Shown here piece by piece: positions 2,129 to 24,290 of a stretch of DNA of 24,752 bases. Both the position numbers and the translations under genes were made by a program. The DNA is from a virus: the IMG/VR virus record IMGVR_UViG_3300010297_000080, positions 1 through 24,752 of that record, one strand, 5' to 3'. Within the stretch, counting starts at the first letter, position 1. Each line of letters starts with the position of its first letter. A model generated the notes under the pieces. The model saw only the letters and a list, made by a program, of their open reading frames with translations, did no database searches and had not been told where the DNA came from.

Positions 2129-2165
2129 TACCTCCGTTATTCTATACTTTTAGTTCACATAGCCG
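2129..2165 (-). repeat. 37-bp element, copy 1
   Basis: In minus orientation it starts CGGCTATGTGAAC and ends AATAACGGAGGTA. It differs from copy 2 (10865-10901) at one position. It lies between a small possible gene (2142-2297, whose end it covers) and the -7 box at 2093, 35 bp away. Just before it the minus strand reads TAACGTATCA, a motif also seen next to the accessory genes at 21944-21957. Confidence 0.85.
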
Positions 2166-2297
2166 TGATACGTTAGAAAACCGTTTCGTGTATCGGTAAT
2201 GGTCTATCTCGTATCGGTGTCTTACATCAAATGTAAACACAAACTGCGCTGCGTGCCTTAAAATACGATAGCCCCTTACAAACAAATCCTTATTCAC
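2142..2297 (-). CDS. Possible small basic protein in an accessory slot
   Basis: A well-formed promoter (TAAGTTTG at 2321-2328 with TTTG 20 nt upstream) is followed by an open frame that can start at GTG 2297 and ends at TAG 2142, giving 51 residues. The product is basic and aromatic (residues 3-12 DLFVRGYRIL, later DVRHRYEIDHYRYTKRF). The frame extends further upstream to 2435 into the coat gene, but that part precedes the promoter. The last 11 codons are made of the 37-bp repeat and its flank, as expected if this is the gene of an inserted cassette. No family recognised, and it could be untranslated. Confidence 0.35.
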   Translation of the reverse strand: MNKDLFVRGYRILRHAAQFVFTFDVRHRYEIDHYRYTKRFSNVSRLCELKV

Positions 2298-10792: not shown

Positions 10793-10810
10793 TTGTTTTT
10801 ATTTGTTTGG

Positions 10811-10818
10811 CAAACATA
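10811..10818 (-). promoter_or_regulatory. -7 box of the DnaA-like/groES operon
   Basis: The minus strand reads TATGTTTG. From the end of the 37-bp repeat to this box the spacing (46 bp) and much of the sequence, including CCACTTTT and TTAATTATTTT, match the groEL promoter region at 22745-22798 without gaps. Confidence 0.65.
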
Positions 10819-10864
10819 CGCAAAATAATTAAACAACACGTAAAAAGTGGCGTAATTATTTACC

Positions 10865-10901
10865 TACCTCCGTTATTCTATACTTTTGGTTCACATAGCC
10901 G
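10865..10901 (-). repeat. 37-bp element, copy 2
   Basis: In minus orientation it begins CGGCTATGTGAACCAAAAGT and ends AATAACGGAGGTA. It has one mismatch with copy 1 and three with copy 3. It directly follows the stop codon (10905-10907) of the small accessory gene and precedes the operon promoter at 10811-10818. Confidence 0.85.
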
Positions 10902-10904
10902 ACA

Positions 10905-11249
10905 TTAGCGGTAATATACTACCAATCTATCTTCCGTGCTTTCTTCATCGTCAAATTCTAATTCTTTTGTAATTGGTAAATCTGCTACAATCGAAAATGT
11001 AACCCACCCACTTGACAAGGCTTTTGGTTTTATTGTTTTGCCCATATAATCTATTGTTGGCTTTTTAAATATTATTTTTTCACGGTCAACTATTACAATT
11101 ATATCTTCGTCAACATTGAAAAAACAAGAATTTGACTGTACTTGTCGCTGATTCAATCTTGTTCTTTTATGCACATTAATACTACCGCTAACACACGGTA
11201 AAACTCCATTGCCTTGTTGTTTTTTGATGTTTTGTTCTTTGTCTTTCAT
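10905..11249 (-). CDS. Accessory protein of unknown function (cassette-like gene)
   Basis: The protein has 114 residues. The N-terminal 45 residues look unstructured and include 'LPCVSGSINV', encoded by a GTTAGCGG motif that also appears in the glycosyltransferase gene (20601-20608). A beta-rich part follows (DIIVIVDREKIIFKKPTIDYMGKTI, then WVTFSIVADLPI) and an acidic end. No family recognised. It occupies an isolated slot between the hydrolase gene and copy 2 of the 37-bp repeat, preceded by a hairpin at 11273-11299. It looks like a 'moron', an extra gene inserted between operons. No clear promoter box was found. Confidence 0.6.
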   Translation of the reverse strand: MKDKEQNIKKQQGNGVLPCVSGSINVHKRTRLNQRQVQSNSCFFNVDEDIIVIVDREKIIFKKPTIDYMGKTIKPKALSSGWVTFSIVADLPITKELEFDDEESTEDRLVVYYR

Positions 11250-18383: not shown

Positions 18384-18630
18384 GAAACTAAACTTTAAGA
18401 ATGACGCGACTTTGATTCGTCGGATTTGCGAGGAAAAGTTTTTCGAGATTGTTGGCGGAGAAATAAGCAACCACAACTTCGATGAGAAAAAACAAGAAGT
18501 AAACCTTTGGATGTTTTATTGCGTTGATTTTTTGCGCAGGTGGACTAAGTTAGACACCGAAGGGTGTATGAGCTACGTTGGGTATTTGATAAACGATGCG
18601 ACAAGTAAGCAAGAAACAAGCGAAGAGTAA
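18376..18630 (+). CDS. 84-residue protein of unknown function
   Basis: I choose ATG 18376, overlapping the preceding stop by 8 nt, rather than 18352, which would overlap by 32. The product is 'MAKKLNFKNDATLIRRICEE' and onward, helical, with Trp and Cys residues (LWMFYCVDFLRRWTKLDTEGCMSYVGYL). It overlaps the HNH gene by 35 nt. No known family. Confidence 0.65.
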   Translation: MAKKLNFKNDATLIRRICEEKFFEIVGGEISNHNFDEKKQEVNLWMFYCVDFLRRWTKLDTEGCMSYVGYLINDATSKQETSEE

Positions 18631-20167: not shown

Positions 20168-20461
20168 ATGGTAACAAAAGAAGATTACAACAGGGCTTTA
20201 GACGTTATTGATGATTACTATAATCAGTTGCGCGATTGTTCATCGGAGGGAAATAAACGGTTTTATTGCAAAGATGAAAGCTACCACAAAACCGCGAGAT
20301 GCACCAAGCAATGTAGCGACTGCATAATTGGCGATAATATAGAGGTTACATTTAAAGTTGACGGTACTATGTACACTATTAAATTTGATAATGGAAGTTG
20401 GGTAAGGGTTTCGGGGGCTAAACTTTACAAAGTTTTAGATGATGTAGCTAGGGATGGTTAG
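20168..20461 (+). CDS. Cys-rich small protein of unknown function
   Basis: The protein has 97 residues. A cluster of six Cys (DCSSEG, FYCKDES, ARCTKQCSDCIIG, about residues 20-54) looks able to bind zinc or form an Fe-S site, and is followed by a beta-like half (IEVTFKVDGTMYTIKFDNGSWVRVSGAKLYKVL). No family recognised. It is the last gene before the accessory segment, and its stop is followed at once by the cassette-like flank. Confidence 0.65.
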   Translation: MVTKEDYNRALDVIDDYYNQLRDCSSEGNKRFYCKDESYHKTARCTKQCSDCIIGDNIEVTFKVDGTMYTIKFDNGSWVRVSGAKLYKVLDDVARDG

Positions 20462-20495
20462 TTTTCATTATCCTTGCCCATAACGTTATTCGGCT

Positions 20496-21935
20496 TTGTT
20501 TAGTGCCGATTTTAAAAAAATAAATTTTCAACTTAAAATAAATATAATTACGAAAACAGAATTTGATAATACCGAAAACGAGGCATTGAACAAAACCGAT
20601 GTTAGCGGTTCGTTGCGGTTAATTAACGGATTACGCATTTTGCATATTTTATCTCCTGTTAAATGGAATGGAGATACTTTTAATGCTAATGCAGATGCTA
20701 ATTGGAAGGTAGCAGAAAAGACAATTAGATTTTTGCCTAATTGCCATCACTATATTTTAGTGCCACATAACCACACTATAAGAATACAGCAAGAGAATGT
20801 ATCTTATATTAAATACGATTACCCAAAAAGCGTACAGTTAAATAGAGGGATGTTTGATTATAGGCAAATAAAGTTTGACTTTACTAAATTAGACGTTGAT
20901 TTTGTATTTAATCACCAACCCGAACTAACGTACAATATTCATCAATGGTTTCACTCAAATAGGTATTACGAAGATGTTATTTACTTTGGTTTTTATCATT
21001 GGATTGACTGTAAACAAAGCAGAGGAAGTGTAAGCGGTTGCCCTTCATTTTATATGAGGCAATTAGAAAGTATGCACATTTTAGATGCAAACTTTGTCCA
21101 TTCAAATATTAGTTTAGATTATCTAAAAGGTAATTTTAAAGAATTTGACTGCTCACATTTAATTAGCAAGGTTTATGAAATGCCTTTGAGTGGAAGGATA
21201 GATGTTGAGCCAACACCATTTAATTTACCTAACAAAAAGATATTATTATTTAACCATAGATGGGCAGAAAGTAGTGGTATAAAAAGAATGATGCAATATG
21301 TAGATAAGTTGGATGATAGTTATGTAGTATGGGTTACAGACGAAAGTTGTGATGTTAAAAATGATAAATTTATAGTAAAAAATCTAACCTATTCAGATTA
21401 TGCTTATTTAGTAGAAAATTGCTACGCTTCAATATGCTTTATAGATGGATATGCAACTTGGAATTTAGCGGTGCAAGATGCTTTGATAAAGAAAAAGCCA
21501 AGTTTATTTTTTGAACATAAAACAATTAGAAAAGTAGTTGGAGAAAAATACAATGGTGGGTTTAAAAACTTTGAACAATTTAAATATATTTTAGAGATAA
21601 ATGACGCTGATGATTTTGATAATTGTATAATATCTGAACACGACTTTATTTTTGAATTACAATTAAAAACAGCTATGTTAGAGCATTGGAAAGACACATC
21701 TAAAAAGCCAAAAGATGCAGATGCTTGGATTAATTGTATTGAAAATGGTATAACTGATAAAAAATCTATTTGCACAAAAGTAAATCCAAAAGTAAGACTA
21801 AATGGAACGGCACATTTTATCCGAAGACATTTATTAAATAATGGAGTAACTGATGATATAAAAGAACCTTATACTCAATACTTCATAGAGGGCAATGCTA
21901 ACACTATAAAACACGATTTATTTAGCAGTATGTAG
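20496..21935 (+). CDS. Glycosyltransferase, GT-B type, no ATG start
   Basis: The frame gives up to 479 residues from a TTG at 20496; another candidate start is TTG 20586. No in-frame ATG occurs in the first 113 codons, yet the folded part begins by about residue 46 ('LRILHILSPVKWNGD'), so initiation must be non-ATG. The nucleotide-sugar domain is suggested by 'KKILLFNHRWAESSGIKRMM' (about 249-268), followed by 'YVVWVTDES' and 'FIDGYATWNLAVQDALIKKKPSLFF', the pattern of GT4-like enzymes. Codon use is much richer in A and T than in neighbouring genes, suggesting separate origin. Together with the methyltransferase it may modify DNA (for example a base) or a surface. The acceptor is unknown. The N-terminus contains the shared TDVSGS motif. 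Confidence 0.7.
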   Translation: MFSADFKKINFQLKINIITKTEFDNTENEALNKTDVSGSLRLINGLRILHILSPVKWNGDTFNANADANWKVAEKTIRFLPNCHHYILVPHNHTIRIQQENVSYIKYDYPKSVQLNRGMFDYRQIKFDFTKLDVDFVFNHQPELTYNIHQWFHSNRYYEDVIYFGFYHWIDCKQSRGSVSGCPSFYMRQLESMHILDANFVHSNISLDYLKGNFKEFDCSHLISKVYEMPLSGRIDVEPTPFNLPNKKILLFNHRWAESSGIKRMMQYVDKLDDSYVVWVTDESCDVKNDKFIVKNLTYSDYAYLVENCYASICFIDGYATWNLAVQDALIKKKPSLFFEHKTIRKVVGEKYNGGFKNFEQFKYILEINDADDFDNCIISEHDFIFELQLKTAMLEHWKDTSKKPKDADAWINCIENGITDKKSICTKVNPKVRLNGTAHFIRRHLLNNGVTDDIKEPYTQYFIEGNANTIKHDLFSSM

Positions 21936-21943
21936 TAATGACA

Positions 21944-21967
21944 GCTAACGTATGGTGCTATGAGCAG
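21944..21967 (+). repeat. Accessory-gene junction motif
   Basis: GCTAACGTATGGTGCTATGA, just after the glycosyltransferase stop, resembles the minus-strand flanks of copies 1 and 2 of the 37-bp repeat (TAACGTATCACGGCTATGTG and GCTAATGTCGGCTATGTG). It probably marks an old cassette junction between the two accessory genes. Confidence 0.5.
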
Positions 21968-21998
21968 TAGCGGATCAATAACAACAAACTTTCAAATT

Positions 21999-22691
21999 AT
22001 GACAAACGATAATAAACAGCAGAAACTTTCGGATAGCACGGACACCGCTATTGCTTATAGCACGTGTTGTGTGTCTGGTGCGGATTTCGGAGAACTAATT
22101 TCGCTTTATAACGAGGATTGCTTACAGGCATTGAAACGATATGATGATAACCATTTTGATATTGCAATAGTAGACCCACCTTATGGAATTGGAATAAGTA
22201 GTAACCCTTTTCGCCAAAAGTTTGAAAAATGTGATTGGGATAACGCAATACCCAACAAGCAATACTTTGATGAACTTATGAGAGTAAGTAAAAATCAAAT
22301 CATTTGGGGTGGAAACTACTTTGATTTACCACCATCGCAGGGCTTCATTATTTGGGATAAAAAGCAACCACAAGATTTTAGTAGTGCAATGTGTGAAATG
22401 GCTTGGATGAGCTTTCAGAAGCCCGCAAAGATATTTAGAAAGCACGTTGTAACTGCTGAACCGAATAAGATACACCCAACACAAAAGCCCGTTGATTTGT
22501 ATAAGTGGTTGCTTACTCACTACACAAATGAAAATGATTTGATTTTAGACACTCATTTAGGTAGCGGAAGTATTGCTATTGCTTGTTGGGAATTGAAACG
22601 TAAACTTGTAGGATTTGAAATAAATAAGGGTTACTACGACAATGCCTGTAAGCGTTTGGATGACAAAACTCGAATTTTAACGTTATGGTAG
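21999..22691 (+). CDS. DNA methyltransferase, beta-class (N6-adenine or N4-cytosine)
   Basis: The protein has 230 residues from ATG 21999; an ATG at 21960 in the junction motif would add 13 residues. Catalytic motif IV is D-P-P-Y at about 59-62 ('IAIVDPPYGIG'), and the AdoMet-binding motif I comes later, around 183-191 ('LDTHLGSGSIAIA'). This order defines the beta class, and 'HPTQKPVDLYKWLL' before motif I is typical of it. The target sequence cannot be read. DPPY favours adenine. No restriction partner is adjacent, so it is most likely an orphan phage methyltransferase that protects DNA from host restriction. It is AT-rich like the glycosyltransferase. The N-terminus (STCCVSGADFG) shares the VSG motif. 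Confidence 0.9.
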   Translation: MTNDNKQQKLSDSTDTAIAYSTCCVSGADFGELISLYNEDCLQALKRYDDNHFDIAIVDPPYGIGISSNPFRQKFEKCDWDNAIPNKQYFDELMRVSKNQIIWGGNYFDLPPSQGFIIWDKKQPQDFSSAMCEMAWMSFQKPAKIFRKHVVTAEPNKIHPTQKPVDLYKWLLTHYTNENDLILDTHLGSGSIAIACWELKRKLVGFEINKGYYDNACKRLDDKTRILTLW

Positions 22692-22707
22692 CACTTGCAC
22701 ACAACGA

Positions 22708-22744
22708 CGGATATGTGAACCAAAAGTGTACAATAACGGAGGTA
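22708..22744 (+). repeat. 37-bp element, copy 3 (inverted relative to copies 1 and 2)
   Basis: It begins CGGATATGTGAACCAAAAGT and ends AATAACGGAGGTA; three mismatches to copy 2. It lies 17 nt after the methyltransferase stop and 46 bp before the groEL -7 box. Similarity to copy 2 continues without gaps through the promoter. Confidence 0.85.
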
Positions 22745-22790
22745 GGTAATTATTTTATCCACTTTTCGCCATTAACTTAATTATTTTTAT

Positions 22791-22798
22791 TATGTTTG
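22791..22798 (+). promoter_or_regulatory. -7 box of groEL
   Basis: TATGTTTG lies 4 nt before the groEL ATG at 22803, so the message should be leaderless. The box sits at the same distance from the 37-bp repeat as in the DnaA-like/groES operon. Confidence 0.65.
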
Positions 22799-22802
22799 CA
22801 AC

Positions 22803-24290
22803 ATGAACAACAAAGTAATAATCGGAAAGGAAGCTCTTGATAGTTTACTTATCGGGGCTAATAAGGTAGCCAACGCGATAAAAACAACGCTTGGTGGTAA
22901 CGGCAGAAACGTAATAATTCAAGGACAAACCAAATACCCCCACATTACAAAAGACGGGGTTTCGGTTGCCAACTCAATCCACCTAAAAGATAACGTGGAG
23001 AGATTGGGGGCTTCCCTTATTCAGGAGGTAGCATCTAAAACACTAGAAACTTCGGGCGACGGAACAACAACCGCGTCCGTTATTGCCCAAGCCCTCATAA
23101 ACTCAAAGGTAGGAAACCCCGTAGCGTTTAAAAAAGATATTGACGAATCTTTAACCCAAGCGGTTGAAGCAATTAAGTCGTTTTCTAAAGATTGCAAAAC
23201 GTCAGAGTCTTTGCGCAAAATCGCCACAATATCAGCAAACAACGACCAAGAGGTAGGGGGTATCATTTCCCAAGCCATAGACAGAGTTGGCGCTGACGGT
23301 CTAATAAAGGTAGAGGACTCAAAGACAAACCAAACAGAAGTGGAAACCGTTGACGGTGTTAGCTTTAACAGGGGGTTTGTTTCTCGGTACTTTGTTACCA
23401 ACAACGAGAAAATGACAGCCGAGTTTGACAAGCCTTTGGTTTTAATTTGCGCAGACCCCATAGACCAAATTCAACACATTATGCCAATACTTGAGTTGGT
23501 GGCAAGTCAAAACCGCTCTCTTTTCATTGTATCAGAACAAGTGGTTGGCGAGGCTTTACAAACCCTAGCTATGAACCACCAACGCGGTTCTCTTAAGGTT
23601 TGCGTGGTGCAAGCCCCCGAATACGGAGAGAGAAGAAAAGACGCGCTCTCAGACTTAGCCCAACTTGTGGGGGCGAAGGTTATTTCCGAAGAAGCGGGTT
23701 CTCCAATGGCAACCATAACCCCCGAACACTTAGGCTCGGCAGAATCGGTATTGGTAACTAAAAACTCTTTTACCATAACGGGTGGTGAAGGTGATATTTC
23801 GGCGGTAGTCGCGCAACTAAAAGATAAAACCGACGATTGGTCAAAAGAACGACTAGCTAAGCTACAATCCAAAGTGGCTGTAATAAAAGTTGGGGGGTTC
23901 TCAGAAACACAAATCAAAGAAAAGAAAGACCGAATAGACGACGCTTTAAGGGCAACCGTAGAGGCTTACAAAGGCGGTTACGTTTATGGTGGTGGTACGG
24001 CTCTTTACTTTGCTTCTTTTAACGTAGAAAGCGATATTTTGCGCGATGCTATGCAAGCCCCAATAAAACAAATACTTTGGAACGCGGGTATGGGAGCGGA
24101 GCTATTAGAAAGTATAGACTACGGTTACGGGGTAAACGTAATTACGGGGGAGGTTGAGAAGTTCGACCACATCATAGACCCCACAAACGTGGTAATAAAC
24201 GCCCTTGTAAATGCGGCAAACATTTCGACAACTTTTATGACAACCGAGTGCTTAATAGTAAACGAAGATGACAATAGAGCAAATAGTTAA
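22803..24290 (+). CDS. groEL: GroEL-type chaperonin (cpn60)
   Basis: The protein has 495 residues, against about 545 in bacteria. It aligns along its whole length: ATP-binding 'TTLGGNGRNVII' (bacteria have GPKGRNV), 'ITKDGVSVA' with the ATPase Asp, 'SGDGTTTASV' with the phosphate-binding Asp, apical domain 'NRGFVSRYFVTN ... SLFIVSEQVVGEALQTLAMN', and 'KKDRIDDALRATVEAYKGGYVYGGGTAL' with the catalytic Asp. It ends '...TTECLIVNEDDNRANS', without the Gly-Gly-Met tail of the cavity floor. A complete intermediate and equatorial domain suggests a working ATPase ring that could fold coat proteins. Together with the GroES genes on the other strand it gives the phage its own folding machine. It has its own leaderless promoter and the 37-bp upstream element. 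Confidence 0.95.
   Translation: MNNKVIIGKEALDSLLIGANKVANAIKTTLGGNGRNVIIQGQTKYPHITKDGVSVANSIHLKDNVERLGASLIQEVASKTLETSGDGTTTASVIAQALINSKVGNPVAFKKDIDESLTQAVEAIKSFSKDCKTSESLRKIATISANNDQEVGGIISQAIDRVGADGLIKVEDSKTNQTEVETVDGVSFNRGFVSRYFVTNNEKMTAEFDKPLVLICADPIDQIQHIMPILELVASQNRSLFIVSEQVVGEALQTLAMNHQRGSLKVCVVQAPEYGERRKDALSDLAQLVGAKVISEEAGSPMATITPEHLGSAESVLVTKNSFTITGGEGDISAVVAQLKDKTDDWSKERLAKLQSKVAVIKVGGFSETQIKEKKDRIDDALRATVEAYKGGYVYGGGTALYFASFNVESDILRDAMQAPIKQILWNAGMGAELLESIDYGYGVNVITGEVEKFDHIIDPTNVVINALVNAANISTTFMTTECLIVNEDDNRANS

Follow-up and report, generated by a model that had tools for sequence, protein, structure and literature searches.

Within a stretch of tailed-phage DNA, two genes stand in AT-rich sequence between a 97-aa ORF and groEL, which raises the question of what this segment is and how it came to lie there. 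The analysed DNA, referred to here as the window, is IMG/VR record IMGVR_UViG_3300010297_000080, positions 1–24,752 (24,752 nt), and all coordinates are those of the window. Its tailed-phage nature is reflected by an SU10-type capsid protein, a P22-like portal, a large terminase, RecA, a polymerase exonuclease subunit and a phage GroEL. The initial annotation had proposed an inserted segment bounded by flank motifs at 20466–22707, encoding a DPPY-class methyltransferase and a GT-B glycosyltransferase; it took no account of the flank motifs as integron-like recombination sites or of the segment as two separable cassettes. The features are collected in Table 1.

Table 1. Positions of the insert, its parts and the related phage features in the window.
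Feature	Position	Strand	Remarks
Phage repeat, third copy	2129..2166	-	
Phage repeat, second copy	10810..10901	-	
97-aa ORF, left of insert	20168..20461	+	Probably phage, possibly further cassette (weak TTATGG/CCATAA complementarity)
Site 1, attC-like hairpin	20481..20603	+	TAACG, 5-nt spacer, 18-bp stem, loop, 1-nt spacer, GTT
Cassette 1 (site 1 + gene 1)	20484..21948	+	Read as cut between AA and C
Gene 1 (earlier "GT-B")	20553..21935	+	No family match; putative start
Site 2, attC-like hairpin	21946..22068	+	TAACG...19-bp stem...GTGTTGTGTG
Cassette 2 (site 2 + methyltransferase)	21949..22704	+	Read as cut between AA and C
Gene 2, DNA methyltransferase (N6_N4_Mtase)	21999..22691	+	PF01555 9.9e-21; phrog_67
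Hairpin-less terminal half-site CACACAAC, right end of insert	22698..22705	+	8/8 complementary to cassette 2 5' end
Phage intergenic repeat + Bacteroidota-type promoter	22706..22799	+	Insert joins right after AAC
Phage-encoded GroEL, right flank	22803..24290	+	phrog_5725 7.8e-122

Composition, genes and sites of the segment

The GC content of positions 20466–22707 is 32.6%, versus 40.6% for positions 1–20461 and 44.2% for groEL, with a drop to about 30% between the 97-aa ORF and groEL and a subsequent recovery. The sharp change of composition claimed initially holds for gene 1, whose body has 30.0% GC (GC3 0.23) and is matched by none of 1059 equal-length stretches outside, but not for the methyltransferase, whose body (37.4% GC) lies within range, 137 of 1094 outside stretches being as low, and is not anomalous alone. 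The compositional anomaly is gene 1 only.

The assignment of gene 2 to the DPPY-class methyltransferases was borne out by its PF01555 score of 75.1 bits against a cut-off of 26.7, and the translation contains DPPY and GSGS motifs in that order. Its relatives, at 50–53% identity, are found in Polaribacter, Tenacibaculum and Flavobacterium phages. The ORF can start at an ATG in the loop of site 2 (21999), and the site-2 leader is common to other cassettes (L008, L014, L016 and others).

The GT-B label of gene 1, on the other hand, was not supported, as no family was found in Pfam, PHROG or NCBIfam and no convincing sequence match in the PDB. No match to gene 1 was obtained in 345 Bacteroidota genomes, 50,697 phage records and 72,556 plasmid records, and the AlphaFold single-sequence model (pLDDT 32) is too poor to speak for or against a GT-B fold. 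The gene body (20627–21938) has 89% DNA identity to a free phage gene in two viral loci (L182/L183), which were also the only homologues recovered with a profile as bait; judging from translations, the free gene lies in a DNA-metabolism region between VRR-NUC-like and DnaB-like genes. The site-1 leader (MKTEFDNTENEALNKTDV in relatives) precedes three other, unrelated genes in L184–L186. Since the body matches a free gene and the leader precedes other genes, we read gene 1 as a phage gene that was captured into a cassette by being joined to a cassette site. Where its translation begins is uncertain, because an ACG stands at 20556, where related cassettes have ATG.

The flank motifs are real and structured, and they take the form of attC-like hairpins, one lying 5' of the gene in each cassette of the window. 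Site 2 contains an inverted repeat of 19 nt at 21955/22045, its two arms separated by 71 nt, with TAACG before and GTT after it; a similar stem with the same cores is present at 20490/20583 in site 1, which has the form TAACG...18-bp stem...TGTTAGCGG. The loop and right arm of site 1 encode the leader KTEFDNTENEALNKTDV, and the loop of site 2 encodes MTNDNKQQKLSDST..AIAYSTCCV. At the 5' end of cassette 1, GTTAGC is complementary to GCTAAC of site 2 in 6 of 6 nt, and the terminal half-site CACACAAC is complementary in 8 of 8 nt to GTTGTGTG (22066–22073). A methyltransferase cassette with ends identical to those of cassette 2 is present in L008, where it runs on into a complete hairpin; in the window, the terminal half-site is followed by phage DNA, GACGGATATGTGAACC, the start of the phage repeat. 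The folding energy of whole sites was not significant against shuffles, and the evidence for the sites is therefore the long stem and its strand asymmetry. No match was obtained in an Rfam scan of the window.

Two further ORFs were considered as cassettes. The 97-aa ORF ("cassette 0") may be a third one, with only the TTATGG/CCATAA pairing and A instead of G before TT; the AT-rich ORF at 10905–11249 was rejected, as no site was found 5' of it.

The phage repeat (CGGCTATGTGAACCAAAAGTATAGAATAACGGAGGTA) occurs right after stop codons and 60–100 nt before Bacteroidota-type promoters (TTG..TAnnTTTG). An additional copy is present at 46417–46457 (minus strand) of the sister contig G001, which was found via the portal, is 99% identical, comprises 52,846 bp and stops at window position 18467. 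The repeat resembles the left half of an attC site and may be a regulatory element or an insertion target; with this likeness, homologous recombination at the right end is possible. As TAATG or TAACG stands before the other copies (10881-, 2178-, one in G001), the phage probably read ...TTGCCCATAACGACGGATATGTGAACC before insertion, and from this reconstruction the insert would comprise positions 20484–22704, i.e., two gene cassettes, so that the initial coordinates were off by no more than about 20 bases. A search for an empty site in this same phage found none, since G001 ends before the segment and the distant relatives found via the portal, which have the exonuclease in common, gave no groEL match; groEL used as bait gave no match in viral contigs.

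Site type, cassette ends and cargo

The site-2 20-mer TAACGTATGGTGCTATGAGC recurs unchanged in 29 stretches of viral contigs from IMG/VR, with differing flanks and nearly always inside a complete hairpin. A structural search pattern (AAC core, spacer, stem, loop, stem, short spacer, GTT core) retrieved 92 sites in the first set of loci versus none in shuffled DNA, and 139 versus 1 in a larger viral set. The site type is found in dozens of Bacteroidota phage contigs, in named isolates, including the Bacteroidota phage P12002L, and next to a tyrosine recombinase in chromosomes of Bacteroidota. The viral loci are predicted viral contigs, some of them near-duplicates (L006/L029/L032, L026/L030) that were eliminated in part when cassettes were de-duplicated, and the site sets are modest in size and were chosen by pattern or recombinase similarity. 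A nearly loopless hairpin of 54 nt, flanked by AACG and GTT cores (L012, 6621–6675), was seen as a minimal or degenerate site.

The sites chain into arrays, in which the bases after GTT are complementary to those before the next AAC, often over 8–10 nt. The mean pairing of 5' and 3' cassette ends was 7.65, 7.60 and 6.36 nt in the first viral, second viral and host sets, with shuffled maxima of 5.26, 5.73 and 4.36, respectively, while the two sides of one and the same site have no special complementarity. This is the signature that would be expected of cassettes excising as circles and re-forming the site. Many arrays end 3' in a hairpin-less half-site whose sequence is the exact complement of the final cassette's 5' end; the DNA past these terminal half-sites is unrelated, and any base can follow AAC.

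The R boxes are non-canonical in both phage and host sites: RYYYAAC and GTTRRRY were each matched by 10 of 139 viral sites and by 4 and 8 of 87 host sites, respectively, with about 1/16 expected by chance. G.T wobble pairs in the stems are one-sided, with G on the 5' arm (220 versus 17 and 155 versus 17), and by these counts phages and chromosomes agree in which strand of the site folds better, the "bottom strand" in integron terms. In classical attC sites, extrahelical bases serve as the strand-choice signal, and the G.T asymmetry is likely to stand in their place here.

About half of 73 larger phage-cassette proteins are methyltransferases, comprising 23 N6_N4, 7 C5, 3 Dam and 2 D12 members plus general methyltransferase matches. 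Among 54 chromosomal-cassette proteins, in contrast, no DNA methyltransferase family with two or more members occurred in the first 25 of 65 families, which instead included nucleotidyltransferases of resistance type, transporters, hydrolases and an EcoRV-type endonuclease. On account of this difference in cargo, counter-restriction is the most likely benefit of cassette 2. By analogy with its family and with the content of other cassettes, the most likely role of gene 2 is to methylate the phage DNA and so counter host restriction, in line with the role originally suggested for it. Resistance-type families among the chromosomal cassettes of L097–L136 include LinB-like nucleotidyltransferase, streptomycin adenylyltransferase, small multidrug resistance and pterin-binding enzyme. 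In Nonlabens phage P12024L (L195, 1395–3660), genes for a TET/JBP-like oxygenase, an alpha-glucosyltransferase (as named in RefSeq) and a DNA methyltransferase lie in a row outside any cassette, possibly as a DNA hypermodification operon.

Recombinases, attI-like junctions and gene polarity

No tyrosine recombinase match was obtained in the window or in G001. On two other phage contigs, G009 (169.7 kb) and G011 (46 kb), a gene for a tyrosine recombinase of 276–298 aa starts just downstream of the terminal half-site, and a third contig (L065) has a recombinase of 79% identity beside its array; these contigs carry phage replication and recombination genes. L055 and L065 resemble each other closely on the right side of AAC and differ on the left side, and this boundary marks an attI-like junction, of which the window itself has none. 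A tyrosine recombinase gene (gp036) adjoining a site similar to site 1 was seen in the cultured Cellulophaga phage phi19:3 (L194, 4992–6248).

Against the integron-integrase model TIGR02249, the two phage recombinases examined scored 155 and 159 bits, below the cut-off of 265. Their best family was NF040815 (XerA) with 206 and 184 bits (PDB 4a8e, 2a3v), and they score below every curated NCBIfam cut-off. A homologue (E<1e-45) is present in 87 of 296 Bacteroidota genomes, and at least 12 of the 30 best chromosomal recombinase loci adjoin the same sites with a terminal half-site. The phage recombinases make up a clade of their own (97/88), separate from the recombinases of chromosomes, with one long branch. 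Chromosomal integron-like arrays were seen in many Bacteroidota genomes (L067, L071, L072, L074, L083, L085–L087, L090, L092, L093, L096, L097–L136), with non-canonical R boxes and a recombinase whose direction is away from the array in some and toward it in others.

For scoring of polarity, the orientation of a site was taken from the asymmetry of its spacers and from the terminal half-site, and ORF direction was scored separately. The sense:antisense ratio of phage cassettes was 64:0 in the first set and 57:2 in an independent set obtained with a different site pattern, versus 3:44 for chromosomal cassettes beside recombinases and 0:10 for those found with the same pattern as the second viral set. 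Altogether, 121 of 123 phage cassettes are inverted and 54 of 57 chromosomal ones follow integron polarity (Fisher p = 1.2e-39 overall; 1.9e-10 for matched patterns), which indicates that the Bacteroidota chromosomal arrays have the usual integron polarity and the phage arrays the opposite one. The better-folding strand is accordingly mRNA-like in phages and antisense in chromosomes. Named isolates with phage polarity are Polaribacter phage P12002S (3/3), Tenacibaculum phage JQ (2/2) and Flavobacterium phage filifjonk9-1 (3/3), together with Flavobacterium phage stinky9-1 in all but one doubtful short match; P12002L has mostly phage polarity. Exceptions to the contrast are antisense cases in P12002L and the three sense chromosomal cassettes. 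Among open-licence PMC papers, no report of inverted cassettes was found.

In phage cassettes, the site forms the mRNA leader and is often the source of the start codon; in 53 of 122, the start of the longest ORF lies within the GTT of the site or upstream of it. A search for promoter motifs in cassette 5' regions gave 3 of 127 versus 2 in shuffles, with none above shuffles. A few recurring leader peptides (M..PPFCKTDV, MKNVDLKNETPTFGNVLLPAV, MTNDNKQQKLSDST..AIAYSTCYV) are fused in frame to unrelated proteins, with examples in the window (20556–20603 and 21999–22068) and in L005, L146, L150, L153 and L157. For the AIAYSTC-type leader, all seven sites avoid GTTAG, which would give a stop in their frame.

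Origin of the segment and relation to known systems

Taking these data together, it is very probable that the segment represents two integron-like cassettes placed by a trans-acting tyrosine recombinase at an AAC core, at the edge of the phage repeat upstream of groEL. A cassette would consist of an attC-like site, i.e., a folded single-strand hairpin with AAC and GTT cores, followed by its gene and a half-site complementary to its own 5' end, and the excised circle would re-form a full site via the complementary ends. Recombination would take place on a single strand, with the cut between AA and C. Because both the window and its 99%-identical sister contig are without a recombinase, the enzyme presumably came from the host or from another phage. 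The hairpin would lie in the 5' leader of the phage cassette, often giving the start codon, and, since no promoter motif was found, cassettes would be expressed by phage read-through. The whole case is sequence-based. What the sequences establish are the sites and the pairing of cassette ends, the way in which arrays terminate, the attI-like junctions next to recombinase genes and the opposite gene polarity of phages and chromosomes. Points against this explanation are the complementarity of only 6 nt at the end of cassette 1, the scores of the recombinases below the integron-integrase cut-off and the R boxes being off consensus.

The segment could also have arisen by ordinary phage mosaicism through homologous or illegitimate recombination, with the hairpins being RNA-level elements (leaders, terminators, T4-type promoter-stem-loop modules) that offer homology. 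Such an origin fits the mosaic nature of phage genomes, the position of the right junction within a phage repeat, the leaders that are encoded by the site loops and read into the gene, and the better folding of the sense strand. We nevertheless consider it unlikely, because cassette-specific end complementarity of 8–10 nt, hairpin-less half-sites and attI-like junctions beside tyrosine recombinases are unexpected from mosaicism, the same sites in chromosomes carry genes the other way round and hence are not leaders there, and the 5' regions lack a promoter motif. The initial annotation implied yet another origin, with gene 1 and the methyltransferase acquired as a unit, a DNA hypermodification pair for glycosylation and methylation, and the free gene 1 homologue does lie in a DNA-metabolism region. 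That the two genes belong to separate cassettes with different sites and different GC content, that the ends and leader of cassette 2 recur without gene 1 (L008) and that gene 1 has no glycosyltransferase family match make this very improbable; in L182/L183, gene 1 occurs without this methyltransferase cassette, though another DPPY methyltransferase is nearby.

Least of all do we expect a standard integron cassette array without integrase (CALIN), no different from those of Proteobacteria. Such CALINs with methyltransferase cassettes have been published for phages, including Polaribacter phage P12002L, and IntI1 recombines P12002L_attC2 (Qi et al. 2023, PMC9892861). The R boxes analysed here, however, fit RYYYAAC/GTTRRRY no more than chance, the phage genes are inverted and the IntegronFinder 2.0 model probably misses this site type, judging from how few integrons it reports in Bacteroidetes (PMC9024848). 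With the phage CALINs of Qi et al., the cassettes share attC-like sites in lytic phages, DNA methyltransferase cargo and the lack of a phage integrase, but that study describes divergent site directions in P12002L and no systematic polarity (PMC9892861), whereas 121 of 123 cassettes are inverted here. The phage arrays also differ in their non-canonical R boxes, in the use of the site as gene leader and in the three contigs with an adjacent recombinase.

Sedentary chromosomal integrons likewise have an attI junction, a cassette 5' end complementary to its own attC and an asymmetry of the folding strand, their integrase has a putative counterpart in the recombinases beside arrays, and the Bacteroidota chromosomal arrays agree with them in gene polarity; they differ in that here the R-box consensus is unmet, the phage recombinases stay below the IntI cut-off and the orientation of the recombinase to the array varies. 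The "atypical" Treponema integrons are comparable in the unusual relative direction of integrase and cassettes, with intI pointing toward attI and the cassette genes keeping the usual direction (PMC3607928), while in the phage cassettes it is the gene that is turned round with respect to attC. Archaeal XerA/IntI4 tyrosine recombinases are the best family for the array-adjacent phage recombinases, which, given the curated cut-offs and their separate clade, are nevertheless distinct. IntegronFinder 2.0 found one complete integron in Bacteroidetes (Salinibacter), where earlier only In0 had been reported (PMC9024848). As the R-box consensus is unmet, standard integron models may miss these Bacteroidota sites.

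That phages can have integron sites and methyltransferase cassettes had been described before (PMC9892861); the inverted polarity, the non-canonical R boxes and the phage recombinase clade turned up in none of the papers searched. The phage form appears to work like an integron cassette system, but fails two of its defining features, the R-box consensus and the gene polarity. The consistent inversion of phage cassettes compared with the Bacteroidota chromosomal ones suggests a phage-adapted gene-swapping system. With moderate confidence, we propose a system of cassette exchange that is peculiar to, and shared among, the phages of Bacteroidota, with inverted genes, a phage recombinase clade and attI, translated-leader sites and a methyltransferase-dominated cargo, which would amount to a common counter-restriction pool swapped by lytic phages. 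Such a system would explain in concrete terms how anti-restriction methyltransferases turn over among lytic phages. Phage cassettes appear to be built differently from host cassettes, a contrast that is testable in cultured phages of Polaribacter, Tenacibaculum and Flavobacterium, and the off-consensus R boxes suggest why integron surveys of Bacteroidota have found almost none or only "empty" integrases.
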